Below the pieces are notes generated by a model. It searched no databases and was not told where the DNA came from. It saw only the letters and a program-made list of their open reading frames with translations. Below are positions 10,933 through 20,466 of a stretch of 25,566 nt of DNA, piece after piece. The DNA is from a virus: positions 1 through 25,566 of IMG/VR virus record IMGVR_UViG_3300042888_000681; one strand, given 5' to 3'. How positions within the stretch are numbered: the first letter of the stretch is position 1; every line of letters starts with the position of its first letter. Both the position numbers and the translations under genes were made by a program.

Positions 10933-13900
10933 TTAAGCCCTTTGACTCCTTATTCTCTGTGCATCTATGTTTTTAATTTGTGTCATGACTGCTCTTGCAA
11001 TATCTTGAGGATTTGCACTAGATCCACCAACATTAATTCCTACATTATAATTATACACTGAACTAGAGTTATTATTTACAGAAGTTGAATTTGAGATATT
11101 TGAAGAGGCAGGTAAATTTGCTGAAGAGGTTTGATATTTTGGTGCGGTCATGCTCTTTTTTAACATTGATGGGAATTTAGATCCGTTTATTGCTCCAAGC
11201 AGTGGTCCAAATGCCTTTGCTGCGTTTTTATTAACTATAAACTCGCCAGGAGTAAGCATTGCTGGAACTGTATCTGTTCCTTTTGCAAAACCACCCATAG
11301 CAAATTTCATTGGCGCAATGAGGCCACCCTTTGCTGCTACTTGAATTCCAAATCTTCCACCTGGGCCACCACCGCTACCACCAGTAGCGTTTGGATCAAT
11401 AGTTGGCAATGTTGCATCATAGGCTGCTTGTGCTAGTGCTAGTAGTCTTGCTGCTTCTTCTGCAGCGGCAATGGCTGCAAGTTTGCGCTCCATGGCAGCA
11501 TCGCTTCCAGCCTTACCACTAAGAGAGTCTGCATATGCTGCTGCTGCATCTGCTGCTTCTTGTGCTGCATCAAGTTCTTCAACTATTGTTATAAATTCTT
11601 CAAGCGCTGCTTCATCTGCTGCAGTTGATGTTGGTGGAACATAAGCGTTTAAATCATTTCCTGAAGGAGAAGTATATGGGCTTGATGATGAAAAGTTCAT
11701 TGAAGATAATGCAGCCATTGCAGCAATAATTGAATCCATAAGATCTTTCATAGTTTTAAGTGGGCCATTATTTATTTCTGTTAACTTATTTTTATATCCA
11801 TCAAGTTGAATCTGTATGGATTCCCAACCAAGTTTTTCAGTTTCAATTGCAAGAAGTTTTGCATTTAGTATTTCTTGATTCTTGTCAAGTTCTCCTTGAA
11901 GAGCATCTAGTTTTGATTGTGCGGTTGCAAGTTGGTTATATTTTAATCCATCAATTACTCTTTCAATGTTTCTAATTAGAAGAAGTTTTTCTTCTCTTAA
12001 TTCTGTTATATTATAAACCTGATCTTCTAGTGAAAGAATCTGCTCTTGTACTATCTTTCTTTGTTGCTCAATAGCATAAGATTCTTGAGCAATTCTAAAC
12101 TGCTCTGCTTCAATCTGTACCTTTGTCATACCACTTGAAGATACTAGTTTGTCAGTTTCAGCCTTTCTTGCTGCTGCAAGTAATTCTCCAGACTTACGAT
12201 TTGCTGAATCTGCTGCAGTTGTACGCATGTCATTTGCCAGTTGCGCTGCTGCAGAGATATCACCTTGAGACAGGGCATCAGCAAGAGAGATTCTACTCTT
12301 TTCCTGTGAGGCAATTTCTTGATTAAGTTCAGATATTTTTTGTAGTGCTTTTTCTTGAGCATCATACTTCTCATTAATTGCTTCTGTAGCCTTATCAATT
12401 AAGGTTAAGTCATTTGATAATACCGCTGATCTATCAGAAAGAACCTGAAGTGGTCTATCAAAATTAATATCCATACTGCGTTGAGAGTCATTAATTTTTT
12501 CCTGAAGATCGTCAAGGAAATTTTGACCAATGGCTGGATCATACTTAAGTGTAAGATTAATTGCATCAATCTTGTCTTGTTCTTTTTGAATACTATCGTT
12601 AATAGATTTAACATCAAGTTCTGCAGTCTTAATCTTAGCCTTTAAACCTATATTGGCTAAATCAAATTGATTTTGTAATGTTCTAGATTGAAGATCAAGA
12701 GATGCGATATTTGCATCAATTGATTCTTGTGTGCTTTGTTCAAATGTAAGTGATTGCTTTCTAATTAATTCAAGCATATCATAATACTCTTTAGTCTTTT
12801 CTATTAAGTCGCCAAATTTGTCTTTAATATTTACAGTTGCATCTGCTGAGCCTATAGCCCAAATATTAGACTTGTCTTTTAATATTTCAAGGATGACTTC
12901 TTGTTTTACACCAGCAGCAGTAAGTTTTTTGAATGCTTCAATTTGCATATTTGTTTCTGCAATATTATCATTAAGTTTTATTGTGCTTAATTGATAATTA
13001 AGTTCAATTGTTTTCTTTATTTCTTTATTTAACTCTATCTGCTCTTCCTTAGTGGCTTTCAGTCCACCTTGTGCTGCAATTTTTGCTGTTAGTGTTGCAT
13101 CCTGTAATATCTTTTGAATCTCAATTGAGTTATAGCCTTCTTTTGTTAACAGTTGATGTGCTGCAACTTGATTTTCAATTTCTTTACTTGCATCCTTGAC
13201 ATCTTGAATGTATCCACCAATAGTTGCTTTGCGGAATCCCTCGTTAATAACTATGAAGTCATCTTTAAGACCAGTAATTCTTCCATTCTTTTGAATATTA
13301 AATAGAGTCTCTGACCATAACTTAAACTGTTCTGCATCCAAACCTCTAATAATTTCCATAAAGTCTTTATCAATAGAAATTCCAGCATCCTTTGCTGCTG
13401 CCTCTATTTGTTTAATTGCTCCAGCCTGTGCATCAAGTCCTGGGTTTATTGAGGTTTTACCACCATCTTTAAGAAACTTCCTTAAAGATATTAGAGGAGT
13501 GAGAGCATTAAAACCGCCCTCTTTAACTAATTTAAGTCTTTGAGCAAGATCATTAAGAAAAGATTCATCTCTCTTTGGACCCTCATCTTTAGGAGTTACT
13601 GGTCCACCAGTTTTAGTTGTGCTTGGAACTGCTGCTCCAAATAACTGTGTTCTAATTTTTTCCATTGCAGCCTTAGTTGCTGCTTCTATATTCTTTGGAT
13701 TTTTTACAAATGATTGTAGTGCAGCAGCAGCAAGTCTTCCAGTTTTTGCACCCTTAGCCTGTTTTTGGAATGCAGTCTTAAGTTCTCTGTCAAGTATTGC
13801 ATCAAAACTGTCGCTAAACTCAATAGATCCCATGGTTATGATTGCTTGGAACTGTAAGTCTTTAGGGAGTTTAGATATTGCAGTCCAATCCCTAATTGCA

Positions 13901-16900
13901 GAATCTAGTGTTAAGTTTTTACCTTCTCCACCTGCTTGTTCTTGCATTTTTATAAGTGCTGTCTTTGTTACTTTTCCATCAGGGAATGCCTTATTTAGTG
14001 CAGCAATTTCTGATCCAACCCTCTTAAGTCTGTCAAGGTCTGCCTTTTGTGTTTCAATACTTAGTTCAATTCCAACATATTCTGGAACTTTTCCAAGTTC
14101 TTCAATAGCAGACATTGTTGCATCGGCTTCAGTCTTATTCATATGCTTCATAGCAAATACAAGTTGCTTTTGGTTATTTTCATTTGGAAGCATTGTTAAA
14201 ATTGTAGAAAGTCTTTGAACTCCTTCTGTTCCTTGTACGGTAACAAGGGTTTGTAGTCTCTTTTGAATATCTCCACCAGTTTTTGTTAATGTGCTTACAA
14301 GTGTTGATGCTTCCATTGGTGTTAGTACATCTGACGTTACTAATGTTGAAATCTCAAGAGTTACTTTGTCATTCTTTATTTGATCAAGTTGTGATTGTAG
14401 TGCTGCAGCCTGTGCCTTAAGTGGTGCATTGTCCTTAAACTTGTCTTGCATTCCAACTGCAAATGCTTCCATATATTTATCACGTACTTGTCCACGGCCA
14501 GAGCCAAACGGACTAAGTGTTTCTCCAAGTGACCTCTTTGAAACATTATCATAATTAGATGAGGCAGATCCTAAAAGTTCTGCCTGCTTTGATCTTAATG
14601 TCTTTAGTCCAGACTGTTTCTTAGACTCTAGTTCAGCAATTTGATCATCTATGGCTTTGCGCTCTTGCTCTGTCTTTAATGTTTGTTTCTTGAGTTGAAG
14701 ATTTGCAATAGCAGAATCATACTGAGATGTAAGAGCATCTATACTTGCTTGTGATGCAGCCACATTTTGTGATACTACTCCTTGTAGCATTCCTGCTGCC
14801 TGACCTATTGCAGCCTTTTCTTTACCCTTTTGCCATTGTCTAATTGCTGTTTCAATACCACCAAAAATAACTGTTGATACTGCTAATCCAACTAATCCTG
14901 CTGGTGCTCCAACTCCTGTTGCACTAACTCCTGCAGACCCAATTGTTCCAGCAACTCTTGCTGCCTTTACAACCTTTAGCGCTGTTCCAATTTTTCCTGC
15001 ATTTCCTGCTTTTGCAATTGCTGCTTCTTGAGAAAGAAGAGATGTTGCACCTAGCCCACCTTGAACCATGTTTGCTGCTTGAATACCTGCTCTTGCCCCT
15101 AGAAGTCCACCACCAATTGCTCCTGCTCCTAACTGACCAATTTCTGACTTTGTATTAATTCCCCGTTGTTGACTAGCAACTAGGTTTAGATTTTTAAGAG
15201 CAGCCTTTTGTAAATTTTGTCCAGTAGTTATTAGATCAACCTGAACTTGTAATGGGTTGCTAACAAGGTTTTCTCCATTAGGACCAAGTAGTTGAATTAA
15301 CCTTCCTCTAACATCAAGTTCAAGTTTTGCATCTTTTAGATTTCTTGTAAGTGCAACGGCAATAGATTCTGCCTGTCCTCTATCTAGTACCCCCTGTGAT
15401 ACTGCAGTTCCTAGTTGATTTACCAATGAGTCTACCGCTGCGCTCTCACCAAGATCTGTCATTGCCTTGTCAAAGGATGTTTTTAAGTTTTTACCAAAGT
15501 CACTGCTTGAAATAATATTATTTCCAAATTCCATGCTTACTGGAACTATGTCAGTATTTCTTCCTGCTCTTTTTGCTGCAGCAACTTGAGTAATAGAAAC
15601 TCGTCCAGTAATCTTTCCAAGTTCTTCAAGTCTCTTGGTAGTCATTGTCATTGACTCTGCTTGCTTCTGTCCTTCAATGATATTTTTTCTAATTGTAGAT
15701 GCTTGCATTTTAAATACCGCAATTAATCCAACGGCAGTTGCTGCAAGTAATTTAAGTGGACTATTAAGCATTGGTAAGAGCATAGTTAACATAGACAACA
15801 TCATTATTGCGTCCATATTCTTTGCTATAGCACCTTCTGGATTCTTTTGAGCAACCATACCTGCAGCCATCGGAATCATCATTCCAGCCATCTGCATAGG
15901 CATCATCTTTTGAGTAAAGTTCATTCTATTCATTTGACGCATATTGGCACGTTCTGCTGCTGATGCGACCCTACTTGATCCATCATCATTTAGCATTGTT
16001 TGAGACACGTTTCCGTAACCACCCAAGAATCCACGGAACCCACGAGTCTTGTCCTTACCAAAAGCCTCAGTTGTTTTATCTGCTGTTTTTCCAAGATCTG
16101 CAATTTTTGGTGTTGCAAGCACTAACTTAGAAGCAACCTTATCAATTGCCTTAAATAGCCTATTAGTAGACTTTGTTGCAGCAGTGGCTTGTGCAACTGG
16201 ATTACTGCCAGTTCCAACTGATGCACTTCCTATTGGCCCTGCATACTGTCCTCCAGGTCTTAGTGATGCAGGTGTTCCAAATGGAATATTTGATTCTGCA
16301 AAGCCAGGAACCTTGTCAGCAATCATTGAACGAATAAGTGGCATGTACTTTGCAGATTGCTTTGCAGGAATTACGGCTTCACCTGGAGAAAGCATTGCAG
16401 GCTGAATATCTCCAGCACCCTTTGGTCCAGGAACAGAGACAATTCCGTTTGCCAACTTCATTGTAGGCTTAACCTTAGAATGAACTTCTTGGAACTTAGA
16501 CCAATCTACATTATCTCTTCCAGCCTTAAGGCGATCAATCATTCTTTGATAGACAACTTTTTCAATACCTGTTAAACCAAATGATGCAACAGTCTTTTCT
16601 AGTTTTGGTAGAACACGATTAATCTCTTTAATTATTTCATCTTGATACTGCGCTGGTGTCATTGACCTTGCAATATCAGCAGTGTTTTCAGCAAATGCTT
16701 TTCTAGCACCGCCCTTAACACCAAGCAAATTGATCATTGCTTGATCTTGCATTGATGGCATCTTGAAGTTAAATTCTCTTGCCCCTGATGCCTTACCAAA
16801 TACTCCAGCAGCACCTACGTCTGCTAGTGTTCCTCCAAATACGTTTGATGGAGATAAATCTTTATCCCCTCGTAATGTTGAAGCAACTAACTGCTTAAAA

Positions 16901-19900
16901 TATTCTTCCTTAGAAAACTTTGTTCCACCTGTTGCAAAGGCTGGGTTGTATGGTGATTCAAGAACAATAATCTTACGCTTACCAGTAACATCTGTTGGGT
17001 CAATCATTGTCTTAATCTTTTGCTCTGGAGCCTGTAGACCATGAGCCTCTCTAGCAATAACTGTTGCTCTTTGTTCTGCTAATGCTGCCTTTTCATCAAG
17101 TACTGGCTTAACAAAAACTACTTCTCCATTTGGCTTTCTATAGATTCCACCGATACCTGGAATTGGGAAACTGTGACCTGAAGTATCTTGTAACTTTACG
17201 CCATAGTTTGTTGGTGGTTCATCTCTAAACCTACTTGATCTTACACGAGCATCTATCTGTTGAGCCATTGATCTGTTTTTAGAAACGGTCTTAAATGGTA
17301 TTGGCATTCCCAGAGAAACAACTCCACGCAAAAATCCTGGAAGTTCTTCGTCCTTTGGTCTAAATCTCTTGAAAGATCTTATTGTTTCATTACTTAAGCC
17401 AGCGTCTTGTAGCAATGATAGTTGATTTGTTTTTGAACCAAATTTTTCATAGTATCCAGAAGAAAGTCTTCTGTCTATTGTTGCATGAACTGCTTTTTGA
17501 ACTGCTGTTCTTTGAGATGCAGGTATATCTAAAATTAATTTACGGGCAGCCTCTGCTTGTGCTCTTTTTGATATGTGCATTCCGCCAAGAGAGGTTCCTG
17601 AAATATTTTGAAAAAATGTATTGAAAAATCCTTGTTCTTCGAATACATTGCTTGGCGCATTTCTTTTAAACTGTGTTAATCCTGGTAACTCGTCTACCTG
17701 TCTATCTGTAAACCTATGGCTAAAGGCTGGAGAGTACTGAAACTCTTTAGCCCTTGATCCTTGAACATTTTGAACTTTTAGAATATCGTCTTGTGTTATT
17801 CCATATGGATTGCCTGGAGTTTTTGCAAGTAACTTTAATTCTTCAATTTCTGCTTTATGAGTAGCAACAAGTTCTTTATAGATTGGTGAATTTTGATATT
17901 TTGATCTTAAAGATGTAACCTGTGATGGAACACGACGATTTCTTTCTGATTGAAATTTAGCAAGTCTACCCATCAAGTCTTTACTTGGACTAGTAATTTC
18001 TTTTCCATTAAGATTTTTTCTTATAATTGCATGAAGAAGTTGTTCCTCTGTAGTATCTTTTCTTCCTCTAGTACTAAGCCATTCATCATTTTCTTTAAGT
18101 TTTTTCTGAACATATTCTTTTTTACCTGCAGGAATATAGAAGAACTTATCTCCAACAGAAACCCTAACTCTATCTCCTTCTGTAGCAAATGAAATTCCTC
18201 TAACTCCAGAAGAAATAGGAATTACTGGCGCTTTTGCTCCTACTACGCCTCTTGTTGATACAGCCCTTGCAGTTGCTGGCATAGCGCCAAGTCTTCCAGC
18301 CATAAAACCTGGAACCTTGTCTTGGATAATCTGATTAATAAAGCCTGCATACTTTTGTGTTTGCTTTGTTGGAATAACAGACTCTCCAGGTGAAAGCATT
18401 GCTGGAACTACGTCTCCTGCTCCCTTTGGTCCTGGAACTGATGTTGTTCCTCCCGCAAATTTCTTAGGAAGTATTACTCCACCCCTTGGCATAAACATTC
18501 CTGGGTTTGTTGCTGCAAATGATCCCATTGCTGCATTGGCCTTAGTATATACGGCCATCAAAGATGATAGCGCTGTTGATTCTAATGCATATGCTGCAGA
18601 AAGTTGTTGGTGCTTAGAATAAAGGGCATTACTAATAGATATGTTTTCTAATTCTTCTTGTGTTAGGTACTGCGTTTTTAATGCTGCATCACTTGATCCA
18701 GCAGAAAGTTGCTGATATCCTTTGCGAAGCACCTGTAGTCCCTTTACAGAGTTTGCAACAGCGTTTGCAAGCAAACCAAATGTCATTAGAAATAGAGGTC
18801 CAAGACCTCCAACAACAACAGTTATAACTCCAATAGCCTTTTTAATTCCATCTGGAAAACTATTAAATTTATCTGCCATTCTTGTTATAAATTCAATTAC
18901 AGGAGTCAGTACCTTTGCAAACAATTCTCCAATAGGGGCTATAGACTTTTTAAGTCTTTCTACTGAGCCAACTAACTTGTTCATTGGAGAGTCTGCTTGA
19001 ATCTTTAATTCTCTCTGGCTTAAGATTGCAAGTTCTTCAACTGATGCATTTGTTAGTTGAAGTACACGAGCAGCCTGAGTTCCTTCTCTACCAAGGTTAT
19101 TTAAAAGTGCAGAAATTCTTGCAAATTGGTATTTTCCAAATACCTTTTCAATTACTCTAGAACGCTCAAGATCAGTTAATGGCTCTAGTGCTTTTGCAAA
19201 TCCAGTTACTGTATTTCTTAAGTTTCCAGCATTTGCTTCAACAATTCCCTTAATGTTAATTCCAACGGCTGCTGCTGCTTTTGATGCAGCATTACTTGGG
19301 TTAATTAAAGATGCAAGACCTGACTTGAGTGCGTTAGCGCCTTGTGCTGCAGAGATTCCACCTTCTTGCATTGCAGCCATAAAATATGCTAAATCTTTTA
19401 CGTCACCACCAAGTTGTTGAATAACTGGTGCAACTTTTGGAATTGCTTCTGTTAAATCTTCAAGTGCTACGACTGTCTGGTTTTCAACAGCGTTAAGAAA
19501 GTCAATTGTTCCAGCCATCTTTCCTGTATCAATTTGGAAAGCATTCTTAAGTGCAATAGTTGTTTCTAGTGCCTTTTCTTGTGTAACTCCACCAAGTACT
19601 GCAAGTTTATTTGTTTGCTCTACAAGGTTTTCTAACCCCTTACCAGAAAAACCTGCTGCTGCTGCATCGGCTGCAGTCTTAATAGTATCTGAAACCTTAA
19701 GTCCATACTTTGTATATTCATCAGCAAGTGCACGTATATTTTTTAATGCAGCATCAGTTGCACCTTGATCTGTAAAAATATCTCCATATACTTTTTTAAA
19801 TCTAATTACTTGTGTTTCAATTTCTTTAAATGTTTTAATTGCTTGTGCACCAAAAAGCATGAGCGGAATGGTAAAACCAACCATAAGTTGGCGACCCGCC

Positions 19901-20466
19901 CACTGAGTATTCTTACCAAAATTTAATAATTTTGTAGCGCCATCATCAACTAACTTATTAAATAGTTGCTGACGCTGTGTTGCCATCATTAACTGGGTTG
20001 TTACATCTCTATAGTTAAGGGCTTTTGGACTAAACTTCATGGCGTTCATAGCGCCTTGTGCATCACGACCTAGTTGAACATACTGTTGCTGTAATGTCTT
20101 TACACGTTTTTCAACTAACTTTCCAACTGTTTCAAATTCACTACCAAAAAACTTTCCAAAAGTCTTGGTAGATGCCATACCATATCTAAAATATTCTTTA
20201 AGAGACAATCTTTGTCTATCAAGTTTTTCAGCAAACTGCTCAGATGCTGTGCTCATTCTGGTCATAGATGCTGTCCACTGACCAGTGGCGTTTACGTTAT
20301 GTAAAAGAGATTGTGCGTATTTTGCCTGTGCTGCTGCTGCAGCCTTTGTTCCAACGATTAAGGAACGGTTAAGGGCTGTGAGTTCCTTCTCAAGTAGACG
20401 CAATTGCGCCATTGCTTGTGAAGTATCAATATTTATAAAAATATTGCTATTTGTATCTCCAGCCAT
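10933..20466 (-). CDS. Giant tail tape measure protein (TP901-like) with an internal kinase-like insert
   Basis: This 3177-residue protein sets tail length and probably helps DNA cross the cell envelope. Residues about 181-470 match the TP901-type core (WAGRQLMVGFTIPLMLFG, then AAAAGFSGKGLENLVEQTNKL). Hydrophobic, glycine/alanine-rich segments lie near 194-210, 543-575, 1525-1590 and 1775-1875. The PAML-x-PGE motif occurs three times (Met690, Met1358, Met3070). The first two belong to 52-residue repeats that flank about 600 residues containing a kinase-like region (about 1085-1300). Residues about 2580-2900 are long coiled coils, followed by an Ala/Glu-rich helix and a glycine linker. The ATG at 20466 follows the short chaperone gene by 20 bp, with GAAGG 10 nt upstream. 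No frameshift or stop interrupts the frame. Confidence 0.95.
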   Translation of the reverse strand: MAGDTNSNIFINIDTSQAMAQLRLLEKELTALNRSLIVGTKAAAAAQAKYAQSLLHNVNATGQWTASMTRMSTASEQFAEKLDRQRLSLKEYFRYGMASTKTFGKFFGSEFETVGKLVEKRVKTLQQQYVQLGRDAQGAMNAMKFSPKALNYRDVTTQLMMATQRQQLFNKLVDDGATKLLNFGKNTQWAGRQLMVGFTIPLMLFGAQAIKTFKEIETQVIRFKKVYGDIFTDQGATDAALKNIRALADEYTKYGLKVSDTIKTAADAAAAGFSGKGLENLVEQTNKLAVLGGVTQEKALETTIALKNAFQIDTGKMAGTIDFLNAVENQTVVALEDLTEAIPKVAPVIQQLGGDVKDLAYFMAAMQEGGISAAQGANALKSGLASLINPSNAASKAAAAVGINIKGIVEANAGNLRNTVTGFAKALEPLTDLERSRVIEKVFGKYQFARISALLNNLGREGTQAARVLQLTNASVEELAILSQRELKIQADSPMNKLVGSVERLKKSIAPIGELFAKVLTPVIEFITRMADKFNSFPDGIKKAIGVITVVVGGLGPLFLMTFGLLANAVANSVKGLQVLRKGYQQLSAGSSDAALKTQYLTQEELENISISNALYSKHQQLSAAYALESTALSSLMAVYTKANAAMGSFAATNPGMFMPRGGVILPKKFAGGTTSVPGPKGAGDVVPAMLSPGESVIPTKQTQKYAGFINQIIQDKVPGFMAGRLGAMPATARAVSTRGVVGAKAPVIPISSGVRGISFATEGDRVRVSVGDKFFYIPAGKKEYVQKKLKENDEWLSTRGRKDTTEEQLLHAIIRKNLNGKEITSPSKDLMGRLAKFQSERNRRVPSQVTSLRSKYQNSPIYKELVATHKAEIEELKLLAKTPGNPYGITQDDILKVQNVQGSRAKEFQYSPAFSHRFTDRQVDELPGLTQFKRNAPSNVFEEQGFFNTFFQNISGTSLGGMHISKRAQAEAARKLILDIPASQRTAVQKAVHATIDRRLSSGYYEKFGSKTNQLSLLQDAGLSNETIRSFKRFRPKDEELPGFLRGVVSLGMPIPFKTVSKNRSMAQQIDARVRSSRFRDEPPTNYGVKLQDTSGHSFPIPGIGGIYRKPNGEVVFVKPVLDEKAALAEQRATVIAREAHGLQAPEQKIKTMIDPTDVTGKRKIIVLESPYNPAFATGGTKFSKEEYFKQLVASTLRGDKDLSPSNVFGGTLADVGAAGVFGKASGAREFNFKMPSMQDQAMINLLGVKGGARKAFAENTADIARSMTPAQYQDEIIKEINRVLPKLEKTVASFGLTGIEKVVYQRMIDRLKAGRDNVDWSKFQEVHSKVKPTMKLANGIVSVPGPKGAGDIQPAMLSPGEAVIPAKQSAKYMPLIRSMIADKVPGFAESNIPFGTPASLRPGGQYAGPIGSASVGTGSNPVAQATAATKSTNRLFKAIDKVASKLVLATPKIADLGKTADKTTEAFGKDKTRGFRGFLGGYGNVSQTMLNDDGSSRVASAAERANMRQMNRMNFTQKMMPMQMAGMMIPMAAGMVAQKNPEGAIAKNMDAIMMLSMLTMLLPMLNSPLKLLAATAVGLIAVFKMQASTIRKNIIEGQKQAESMTMTTKRLEELGKITGRVSITQVAAAKRAGRNTDIVPVSMEFGNNIISSSDFGKNLKTSFDKAMTDLGESAAVDSLVNQLGTAVSQGVLDRGQAESIAVALTRNLKDAKLELDVRGRLIQLLGPNGENLVSNPLQVQVDLITTGQNLQKAALKNLNLVASQQRGINTKSEIGQLGAGAIGGGLLGARAGIQAANMVQGGLGATSLLSQEAAIAKAGNAGKIGTALKVVKAARVAGTIGSAGVSATGVGAPAGLVGLAVSTVIFGGIETAIRQWQKGKEKAAIGQAAGMLQGVVSQNVAASQASIDALTSQYDSAIANLQLKKQTLKTEQERKAIDDQIAELESKKQSGLKTLRSKQAELLGSASSNYDNVSKRSLGETLSPFGSGRGQVRDKYMEAFAVGMQDKFKDNAPLKAQAAALQSQLDQIKNDKVTLEISTLVTSDVLTPMEASTLVSTLTKTGGDIQKRLQTLVTVQGTEGVQRLSTILTMLPNENNQKQLVFAMKHMNKTEADATMSAIEELGKVPEYVGIELSIETQKADLDRLKRVGSEIAALNKAFPDGKVTKTALIKMQEQAGGEGKNLTLDSAIRDWTAISKLPKDLQFQAIITMGSIEFSDSFDAILDRELKTAFQKQAKGAKTGRLAAAALQSFVKNPKNIEAATKAAMEKIRTQLFGAAVPSTTKTGGPVTPKDEGPKRDESFLNDLAQRLKLVKEGGFNALTPLISLRKFLKDGGKTSINPGLDAQAGAIKQIEAAAKDAGISIDKDFMEIIRGLDAEQFKLWSETLFNIQKNGRITGLKDDFIVINEGFRKATIGGYIQDVKDASKEIENQVAAHQLLTKEGYNSIEIQKILQDATLTAKIAAQGGLKATKEEQIELNKEIKKTIELNYQLSTIKLNDNIAETNMQIEAFKKLTAAGVKQEVILEILKDKSNIWAIGSADATVNIKDKFGDLIEKTKEYYDMLELIRKQSLTFEQSTQESIDANIASLDLQSRTLQNQFDLANIGLKAKIKTAELDVKSINDSIQKEQDKIDAINLTLKYDPAIGQNFLDDLQEKINDSQRSMDINFDRPLQVLSDRSAVLSNDLTLIDKATEAINEKYDAQEKALQKISELNQEIASQEKSRISLADALSQGDISAAAQLANDMRTTAADSANRKSGELLAAARKAETDKLVSSSGMTKVQIEAEQFRIAQESYAIEQQRKIVQEQILSLEDQVYNITELREEKLLLIRNIERVIDGLKYNQLATAQSKLDALQGELDKNQEILNAKLLAIETEKLGWESIQIQLDGYKNKLTEINNGPLKTMKDLMDSIIAAMAALSSMNFSSSSPYTSPSGNDLNAYVPPTSTAADEAALEEFITIVEELDAAQEAADAAAAYADSLSGKAGSDAAMERKLAAIAAAEEAARLLALAQAAYDATLPTIDPNATGGSGGGPGGRFGIQVAAKGGLIAPMKFAMGGFAKGTDTVPAMLTPGEFIVNKNAAKAFGPLLGAINGSKFPSMLKKSMTAPKYQTSSANLPASSNISNSTSVNNNSSSVYNYNVGINVGGSSANPQDIARAVMTQIKNIDAQRIRSQRA
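11164..11304 (-). repeat. Third PAML-x-PGE repeat of the tape measure gene
   Basis: This encodes residues 3055-3101, containing AKGTDTVPAMLTPGEFIVNK, and is the C-terminal and most diverged of three related segments. A single motif of this type near the C-terminus is common in tape measure proteins; its function is not established. It marks the ancestral location against which the two internal copies can be compared. Confidence 0.7.
16300..16455 (-). repeat. Second internal repeat of the tape measure gene, after the kinase-like insert
   Basis: This encodes residues 1338-1389. It shares SVPGPKGAGD, PAMLSPGE and DKVPGF, in the same register and without gaps, with the copy at 18304-18459. The two copies are in direct orientation and have drifted at third positions, so the duplication is not recent. 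Confidence 0.85.
16567..17214 (-). other. Kinase-fold-like domain within the tape measure protein
   Basis: This corresponds to about residues 1085-1300. A glycine-containing hairpin (GIGGIYRKPNGEVVFVKP) ends in Lys1120, in the position of the beta-3 lysine. Glu1131 or Glu1139 lies in the following helix. RGDKDLSPSNVF gives Asp1203-x4-Asn1208, the spacing of the catalytic loop in protein and lipid kinases, and LADVGAAG supplies Asp1216-x-Gly, like a DFG motif. The compact layout is nearer to atypical kinases (HipA, PI3/PI4-kinase or actin-fragmin kinase types) than to eukaryotic Ser/Thr kinases. No family can be named by eye, and a structural pseudo-kinase is possible. It lies between two direct repeats, consistent with an inserted cargo domain. 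Confidence 0.55.
18304..18459 (-). repeat. First internal repeat of the tape measure gene, before the kinase-like insert
   Basis: This encodes residues 670-721, including SVPGPKGAGDVVPAMLSPGE and ending DKVPGF. It aligns without gaps to residues 1338-1389 (16300-16455) and more loosely to residues 3055-3101. Confidence 0.85.

Follow-up and report, generated by a model that had tools for sequence, protein, structure and literature searches.

The window analysed here is the whole of a 25.6-kb viral fragment (25,566 nucleotides, 36% G+C; IMG/VR record IMGVR_UViG_3300042888_000681). One gene on its minus strand encodes a tail tape measure protein (TMP), and within this protein lies a domain with a predicted kinase fold, which is the subject of this report. 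The open reading frame (ORF) at 10933..20466 (minus strand) scored 112 bits with TIGR01760 (cut-off 28.8) and 95.3 bits with PF10145 (cut-off 33.2), and the gene adjoins those of a minor tail protein and a tail protein. The product was classed as a phage TMP on both grounds, a core scoring above the curated cut-off and a neighbourhood of tail genes. The protein, its core, the domain and the residues of interest are located as follows.

10933..20466, minus strand: tail tape measure protein, 3177 amino acids (TIGR01760, PF10145; tail genes around)
19135..19716, minus strand: conserved TMP core, PhageMin_Tail, residues 251-444 (Pfam PF10145, E 5.7e-27)
16465..17319, minus strand: kinase-fold domain, residues 1050-1334, with the lobes at 1085-1334 (AlphaFold2 model, Foldseek and VIA-align matches, 141 unique homologues)
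17107..17109, minus strand: K1120, strand-3 lysine (141/141 homologues)
17074..17076, minus strand: E1131, helix-C glutamate (138/141)
16864..16866, minus strand: D1201, within the catalytic-loop segment RGDKDLSPSN (141/141)
16858..16860, minus strand: D1203, likely catalytic Asp of D-x4-N (141/141)
16843..16845, minus strand: N1208, likely metal-binding Asn (141/141)
16819..16821, minus strand: D1216 of D-x-G, likely metal-binding Asp (141/141)

Fold and conservation of the kinase-like domain

The domain was modelled with AlphaFold2 from 49 relatives (mean pLDDT 87.6, pTM 0.86). The model is bilobal, with a beta-rich N-lobe containing a helix C and with a helical C-lobe, as in kinases. Its elements follow the order seen in kinases: strands at residues 1090-1094, 1107-1110 and 1116-1121 (with K1120), a helix at 1125-1140 (with E1131), strands at 1150-1155 and 1165-1172, a helix at 1186-1199 and the loop RGDKDLSPSN at 1199-1208; D1216-V-G follows a strand pair and is itself followed by helices. 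Foldseek was run against the PDB and returned CtkA as the best match (E 4.6e-4), then other kinases and kinase-fold enzymes, SidJ included, in its top rows. In the top rows of VIA-align were CotH (Z 11.9 over 218 residues), CtkA (10.8) and PI4K-II (about 10). Fam20C (Z 8.6), HipA (8.7), VPS34 and actin-fragmin kinase (both also about 8-9) were matched too. The model has a kinase fold like that of HipA (4pu4_B, Z 8.7; 2wiu_C, Z 8.3), with scores lower than those of CotH and CtkA. The original prediction, made from motif residues, had placed a kinase-like fold inside the TMP and had proposed structure prediction followed by structure search as a check. Both were performed, and the confident bilobal model and the kinases heading both searches bear it out.

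Searches at the level of sequence were negative. Neither the segment 1085-1334 nor profiles built from it gave anything significant in Pfam, PHROGs, NCBIfam or the PDB sequences. HipA_C (PF07804) matched neither the window nor the member sequences of set A1, and CotH (PF08757) did not match the domain. A profile comparison with HipA, also suggested at the outset, was negative: hhalign of the domain profile to E. coli HipA found no match. By its model the domain is an atypical kinase, which sequence does not allow to be assigned to HipA or to CotH. No relative of the domain was found in searches of a phage database, plasmids and bacterial genomes. Matches in Arthrobacter phages (E 0.6) were taken as chance.

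Conservation was scored in 141 unique domains that are 37-100% identical to that of the window, more distant members having been added. Only 22 columns are invariant. K1120, D1201, D1203, N1208 and D1216 are among them, and the set of Lys, helix-C Glu, D-x4-N and D-x-G Asp that characterizes the kinase-like superfamily is conserved. The neighbours P1121, R1133, G1218 and G1228 vary; G1218 of the D-x-G is replaced by Ser in a few homologues. The residues first named (K1120, E1131, D1203, N1208 and D1216-V-G) lie where they had been placed, and the four proposed for a substitution check (K1120, D1203, N1208 and D1216) were not substituted in any homologue. The choice left between Glu1131 and Glu1139 was settled for the former. 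Residue 1139 is an Arg; the Glu is at 1140 and is shared by 65/123 domains, so that E1131 is the helix-C candidate. D1201 was missing from that first list of motif residues.

In IMG/VR, 407 relative stretches of the domain were confirmed in one scan. The domain shares its ORF with a TMP core in 115 of 122 unique cases, and six others belong to ORFs truncated where their contig stops. The sole unique domain (n = 122) without an upstream core is in L349, where the ORF begins 62 residues before the domain; it was taken for a split ORF. The dN/dS ratio was 0.17-0.26 in the domain versus 0.32-0.85 in the coil at 2000-2300. The domain is under purifying selection. Its identity to relatives (about 50-80%) is similar to that of the TMP core. 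In distant relatives the flanking segments 721-1020 and 1381-2300 drop to 0-25% identity.

The best matches of the domain in the viral structure library BFVD were large phage proteins (A0A6J5S481, A0A6J5PWC9, A0A6B9L6W7 and A0A4D6E245), named portal protein, ADP-ribosyltransferase or uncharacterized. They come from uncultured Caudovirales, Mycobacterium phage Onyinye and Gordonia phage GodonK. Because such proteins are the best matches, other virion proteins may likewise carry kinase-like folds.

The variable slot and the exchange of its cargo

The TMP has a variable slot, which in the window holds the kinase; close relatives have lost the kinase, and in some TMPs an ADP-ribosyltransferase (ART) takes its place. 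The slot lies between the TMP core and the hydrophobic or coiled part of the protein. Its components and surroundings in the window are given below.

18304..18462, minus strand: linker repeat 1, residues 669-721, SVPGPKGAGDVVPAMLSPGESVIP...DKVPGF (ungapped amino acid alignment to linker repeat 2; 65% DNA identity)
16300..16458, minus strand: linker repeat 2, residues 1337-1389, directly after the kinase (ungapped alignment to linker repeat 1)
17320..18303, minus strand: companion segment, residues 722-1049, also within the slot (variable; many relatives lack it or are 0-25% identical)
18766..18828, minus strand: hydrophobic transmembrane-like segment, residues 547-567, upstream of the slot (Kyte-Doolittle scan)
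15712..15807, minus strand: hydrophobic transmembrane-like segments, residues 1554-1585, downstream of the slot (Kyte-Doolittle scan)

The linker repeats, of 53 residues each, enclose the companion segment and the kinase in the TMP of the window. Elsewhere in the clade one linker or both have diverged or escaped a simple motif search, and the linker border is consequently best defined in the close relatives of the window. The companion segment is partly related to L398 and L066, and related segments occur in the TMPs of the clade of the window. The pre-cargo segments of two kinase TMPs (L195 and L209) and of an ART TMP (L186) are mutually related.

TMPs with 90-93% identical cores hold different cargo. 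Over the first 900 residues or so, identity is 67-97% per 100 residues, yet L187 and L178 have the kinase and L185 and L186 do not. The core of L398 is 95% identical to that of the window and linkers are found on both sides, with no kinase between them. In L388, L390 and L391 the core is 96-97% identical to that of the window and the kinase 38-40%, all catalytic residues being kept. In these three the divergence of the kinase goes far beyond that of the core, as if the domain had been exchanged or were under diversifying pressure.

Slot content was counted in the 80 TMP loci closest to each of two selected cores, which do not make an unbiased sample. In the two sets the kinase was found in 21 and 32 loci, the ART in 11 and 0, and neither domain in 29 and 38; all others were truncated. 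Kinase and ART were never found in the same TMP in these sets. A tree of 99 cores requires at least seven changes of the kinase label, and at least four of these are forced by well supported branches. When three labels are used (kinase, ART, neither) there are 17 changes, one of which may be an artefact, since L299 was scored as 'neither' though its ART sits in a separate ORF.

The ART domain is unrelated to the kinase and is found at its place inside TMPs (L186:11475-12185, L207:9939-10688 and L256-L306). R114, S157 and the E-x-E (E220 and E222) of the R-S-E signature are invariant in 32 sequences. For the model of the domain (pLDDT 78.7), Foldseek placed ARTs in its first two rows, with Vis at E 2.7e-4, and the first 37 rows of VIA-align were all ART folds (Z 7.5-9.1). 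Motifs and fold thus agree with membership of the R-S-E ADP-ribosyltransferases. No Pfam model matched the domain and its profile had no match among the PDB sequences, so that the identification relies on motif and fold. By these two, the alternative cargo was confirmed as a second predicted enzyme fold, that of an R-S-E ADP-ribosyltransferase. Weak tblastn matches of the ART in TMPs of the Streptomyces phages Madamato and Psst1 (E 0.02-0.08) cover a third of the domain and were not relied on.

Slots several hundred residues long that contain no named domain occur in TMPs with neither kinase nor ART, among them L185, L396, L399, L438 and L452. Pfam named no further enzyme in the slots of the kinase-less TMPs. 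The slots of TMPs with neither domain may contain further cargo types.

Proposed role and rival explanations

We read residues 1050-1334 or thereabouts as an enzyme with an atypical kinase fold, carried in the tail as exchangeable cargo and acting on the host (probability about 0.72). The reading starts from the fold, the invariant ATP-binding, metal-binding and catalytic residues, the optional presence of the domain and its exchange with a second enzyme class. The best reading of these observations is a facultative, swappable, host-modifying effector delivered by the tail, of which we infer the catalysis, the delivery and the substrate. The proposed activity and delivery to the host gain strength from the TMPs that do without the domain or have the ART at the same place.

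The TMP resides in the tail tube until infection, when it exits. According to the proposed mechanism, it would leave the opened tail and enter the host envelope, and the cargo between the transmembrane-like segments would be exposed in the host or released into its membrane or cytoplasm, refolding if it had been threaded. ATP-Mg would be bound via K1120, E1131, N1208 and D1216, and host targets would be phosphorylated with D1203 (or D1201) as the base. These targets would most likely be proteins and less likely lipids or nucleotides. Host molecules would be modified prior to phage gene expression, and early infection would be favoured or host defence blunted, as T4 Alt does by ADP-ribosylation. 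The exchange of kinase and ART and the divergence of the kinase among near-identical cores fit an arms race over host targets.

Several points weigh against this reading. The tail tube, about 4 nm wide, should not have room for the several folded 30-kDa copies in each tail to lie abreast, so that one has to suppose threading, a staggered arrangement or partial unfolding. Foldseek TM-scores were modest (0.35-0.39), which indicates a divergent kinase fold. The His of the HRD motif is missing, the catalytic loop being RGDKD. No cultured phage with the kinase domain was found in the phage collections searched. Finally, the kinase may instead act on virion proteins during assembly.

This last possibility, an active kinase that targets phage proteins (TMP, chaperones, tube) during tail assembly or maturation, is in keeping with a domain that belongs to a structural protein and has conserved residues. 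We consider it rather improbable, as the domain is missing from many TMPs of this clade, one of them with a 95% identical core, and one would scarcely expect a step of assembly to be dispensable, or to be interchangeable with the ADP-ribosylation expected of the ART at the same place. We give very little credit to a pseudokinase or a purely structural filler that sets tail length or bulk, which the missing canonical HRD motif would suit. A filler would not retain ATP, metal and catalytic residues that are invariant down to 37% identity while their neighbours vary, and the optional and exchangeable presence of the kinase likewise disfavours a filler. The least credible explanation, a motif arisen by chance in a coiled scaffold, has in its favour the lack of any match to sequence families; it is refuted by the confident model, the kinases in the top rows of the fold searches and the invariance in 141 homologues.

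A different activity of the same fold deserves more weight than any of these, though it is still unlikely: a non-protein substrate (as for a lipid, nucleotide or peptidoglycan-precursor kinase) or another use of ATP, such as AMPylation or glutamylation. PI4K-II and VPS34 (VIA-align) and SidJ (Foldseek) are among the fold neighbours, and the TMP touches the membrane. CotH, CtkA, Fam20C and HipA are protein kinases and are among the best fold neighbours, and the ART that replaces the kinase is of a mostly protein-modifying class; both points favour a protein substrate but are not decisive.

A wider reading seems to us somewhat better supported than not. The TMPs of a large, mostly uncultured group of tailed phages would have a dedicated, recombining cargo slot, bounded by linkers in the window and located between transmembrane-like segments, that delivers interchangeable protein-modifying enzymes to the host. 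The kinase, the ART and perhaps others would be its contents, and the slot would be a tail-borne counterpart of the MuF polymorphic toxins.

Comparison with known systems

The best fold match, the spore-coat kinase CotH of B. cereus (5jda/5jd9; Z 11.8-11.9 over 217-218 residues, root-mean-square deviation 3.8-3.9), differs from the domain in that it is 8% identical to it, that PF08757 gives no match and that it is not a phage tail domain. CtkA, HipA, PI4K-II and Fam20C share the bilobal atypical fold and have the Lys, the D-x4-N and the D-x-G Asp in the same order (Z 8.6-10.8), but are 8-15% identical to the TMP domain.

The kinases of polyvalent proteins have lost the whole C-terminal subdomain and have a conserved His in the phosphotransfer site; most are from (pro)phages of Verrucomicrobia-Chlamydia and Bacteroidetes (Iyer et al., 2017; PMC5512222). 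Like the TMP kinase, they are kinase domains within large multidomain phage proteins that are presumed to be delivered to the host. In the TMP kinase, by contrast, a helical C-terminal part (residues 1239-1329) is present after the D-x-G and is well predicted, the loop RGDKDLxxxN has no His before the Asp and the carrier is a TMP. The two are distinct groups.

T4 Alt (packaged in the head), MuF toxins (a head protein) and polyvalent proteins are effectors delivered by the virion (PMC5512222, PMC5576092). T4 Alt and the MuF polymorphic toxins resemble the TMP in being virion-associated or packaged proteins with variable enzymatic effector domains. The TMP cargo differs from them in its carrier, the tail tape measure, and in its internal position. 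The contractile injection systems of actinobacteria have Sle1-type effectors, proteins related to TMPs in which the C-terminal domain is variable and can be exchanged (Nagakubo et al., 2026; PMC13277306). They have in common with the TMP of the window a TMP-related protein, swappable functional domains and a tail-like delivery machine. The TMP of the window, however, is that of a real phage and its slot for kinase or ART is internal, whereas Sle1-type effectors belong to bacterial contractile systems.

No kinase or ART cargo in a phage TMP was found in the open-access literature searched, an absence that is not proof. Some TMPs, such as that of mycobacteriophage TM4, carry muramidase or peptidase domains that act on the cell wall for DNA entry. 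These too are enzymes inside a TMP, but the kinase and ART cargo would target host proteins. To our knowledge, the established way for a phage enzyme to rewire the host ahead of phage gene expression is as an injected head protein, and the cell wall is the target of those enzymes that have been described in tape measures. Within the class of virion-borne polymorphic effectors, the new elements here are the carrier, the position and an unnamed kinase family. If the proposed role is true, the tail itself would deliver enzymes that take over the host or counter its defences. This raises a testable physical question, that of the passage or seating of a 30-kDa enzyme in a tail tube of about 4 nm. 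As neither cargo domain is named by any sequence library used, annotation pipelines would miss both.

Isolate phages with a related TMP core are mostly Streptomyces and Gordonia phages, together with many Staphylococcus phages at lower similarity. The TMPs of Streptomyces phages are 27-30% identical to the N-terminal region of the TMP of the window. A gene for a DnaB-like replicative helicase is found near the tail genes, at positions 654-1874 of the window (minus strand).

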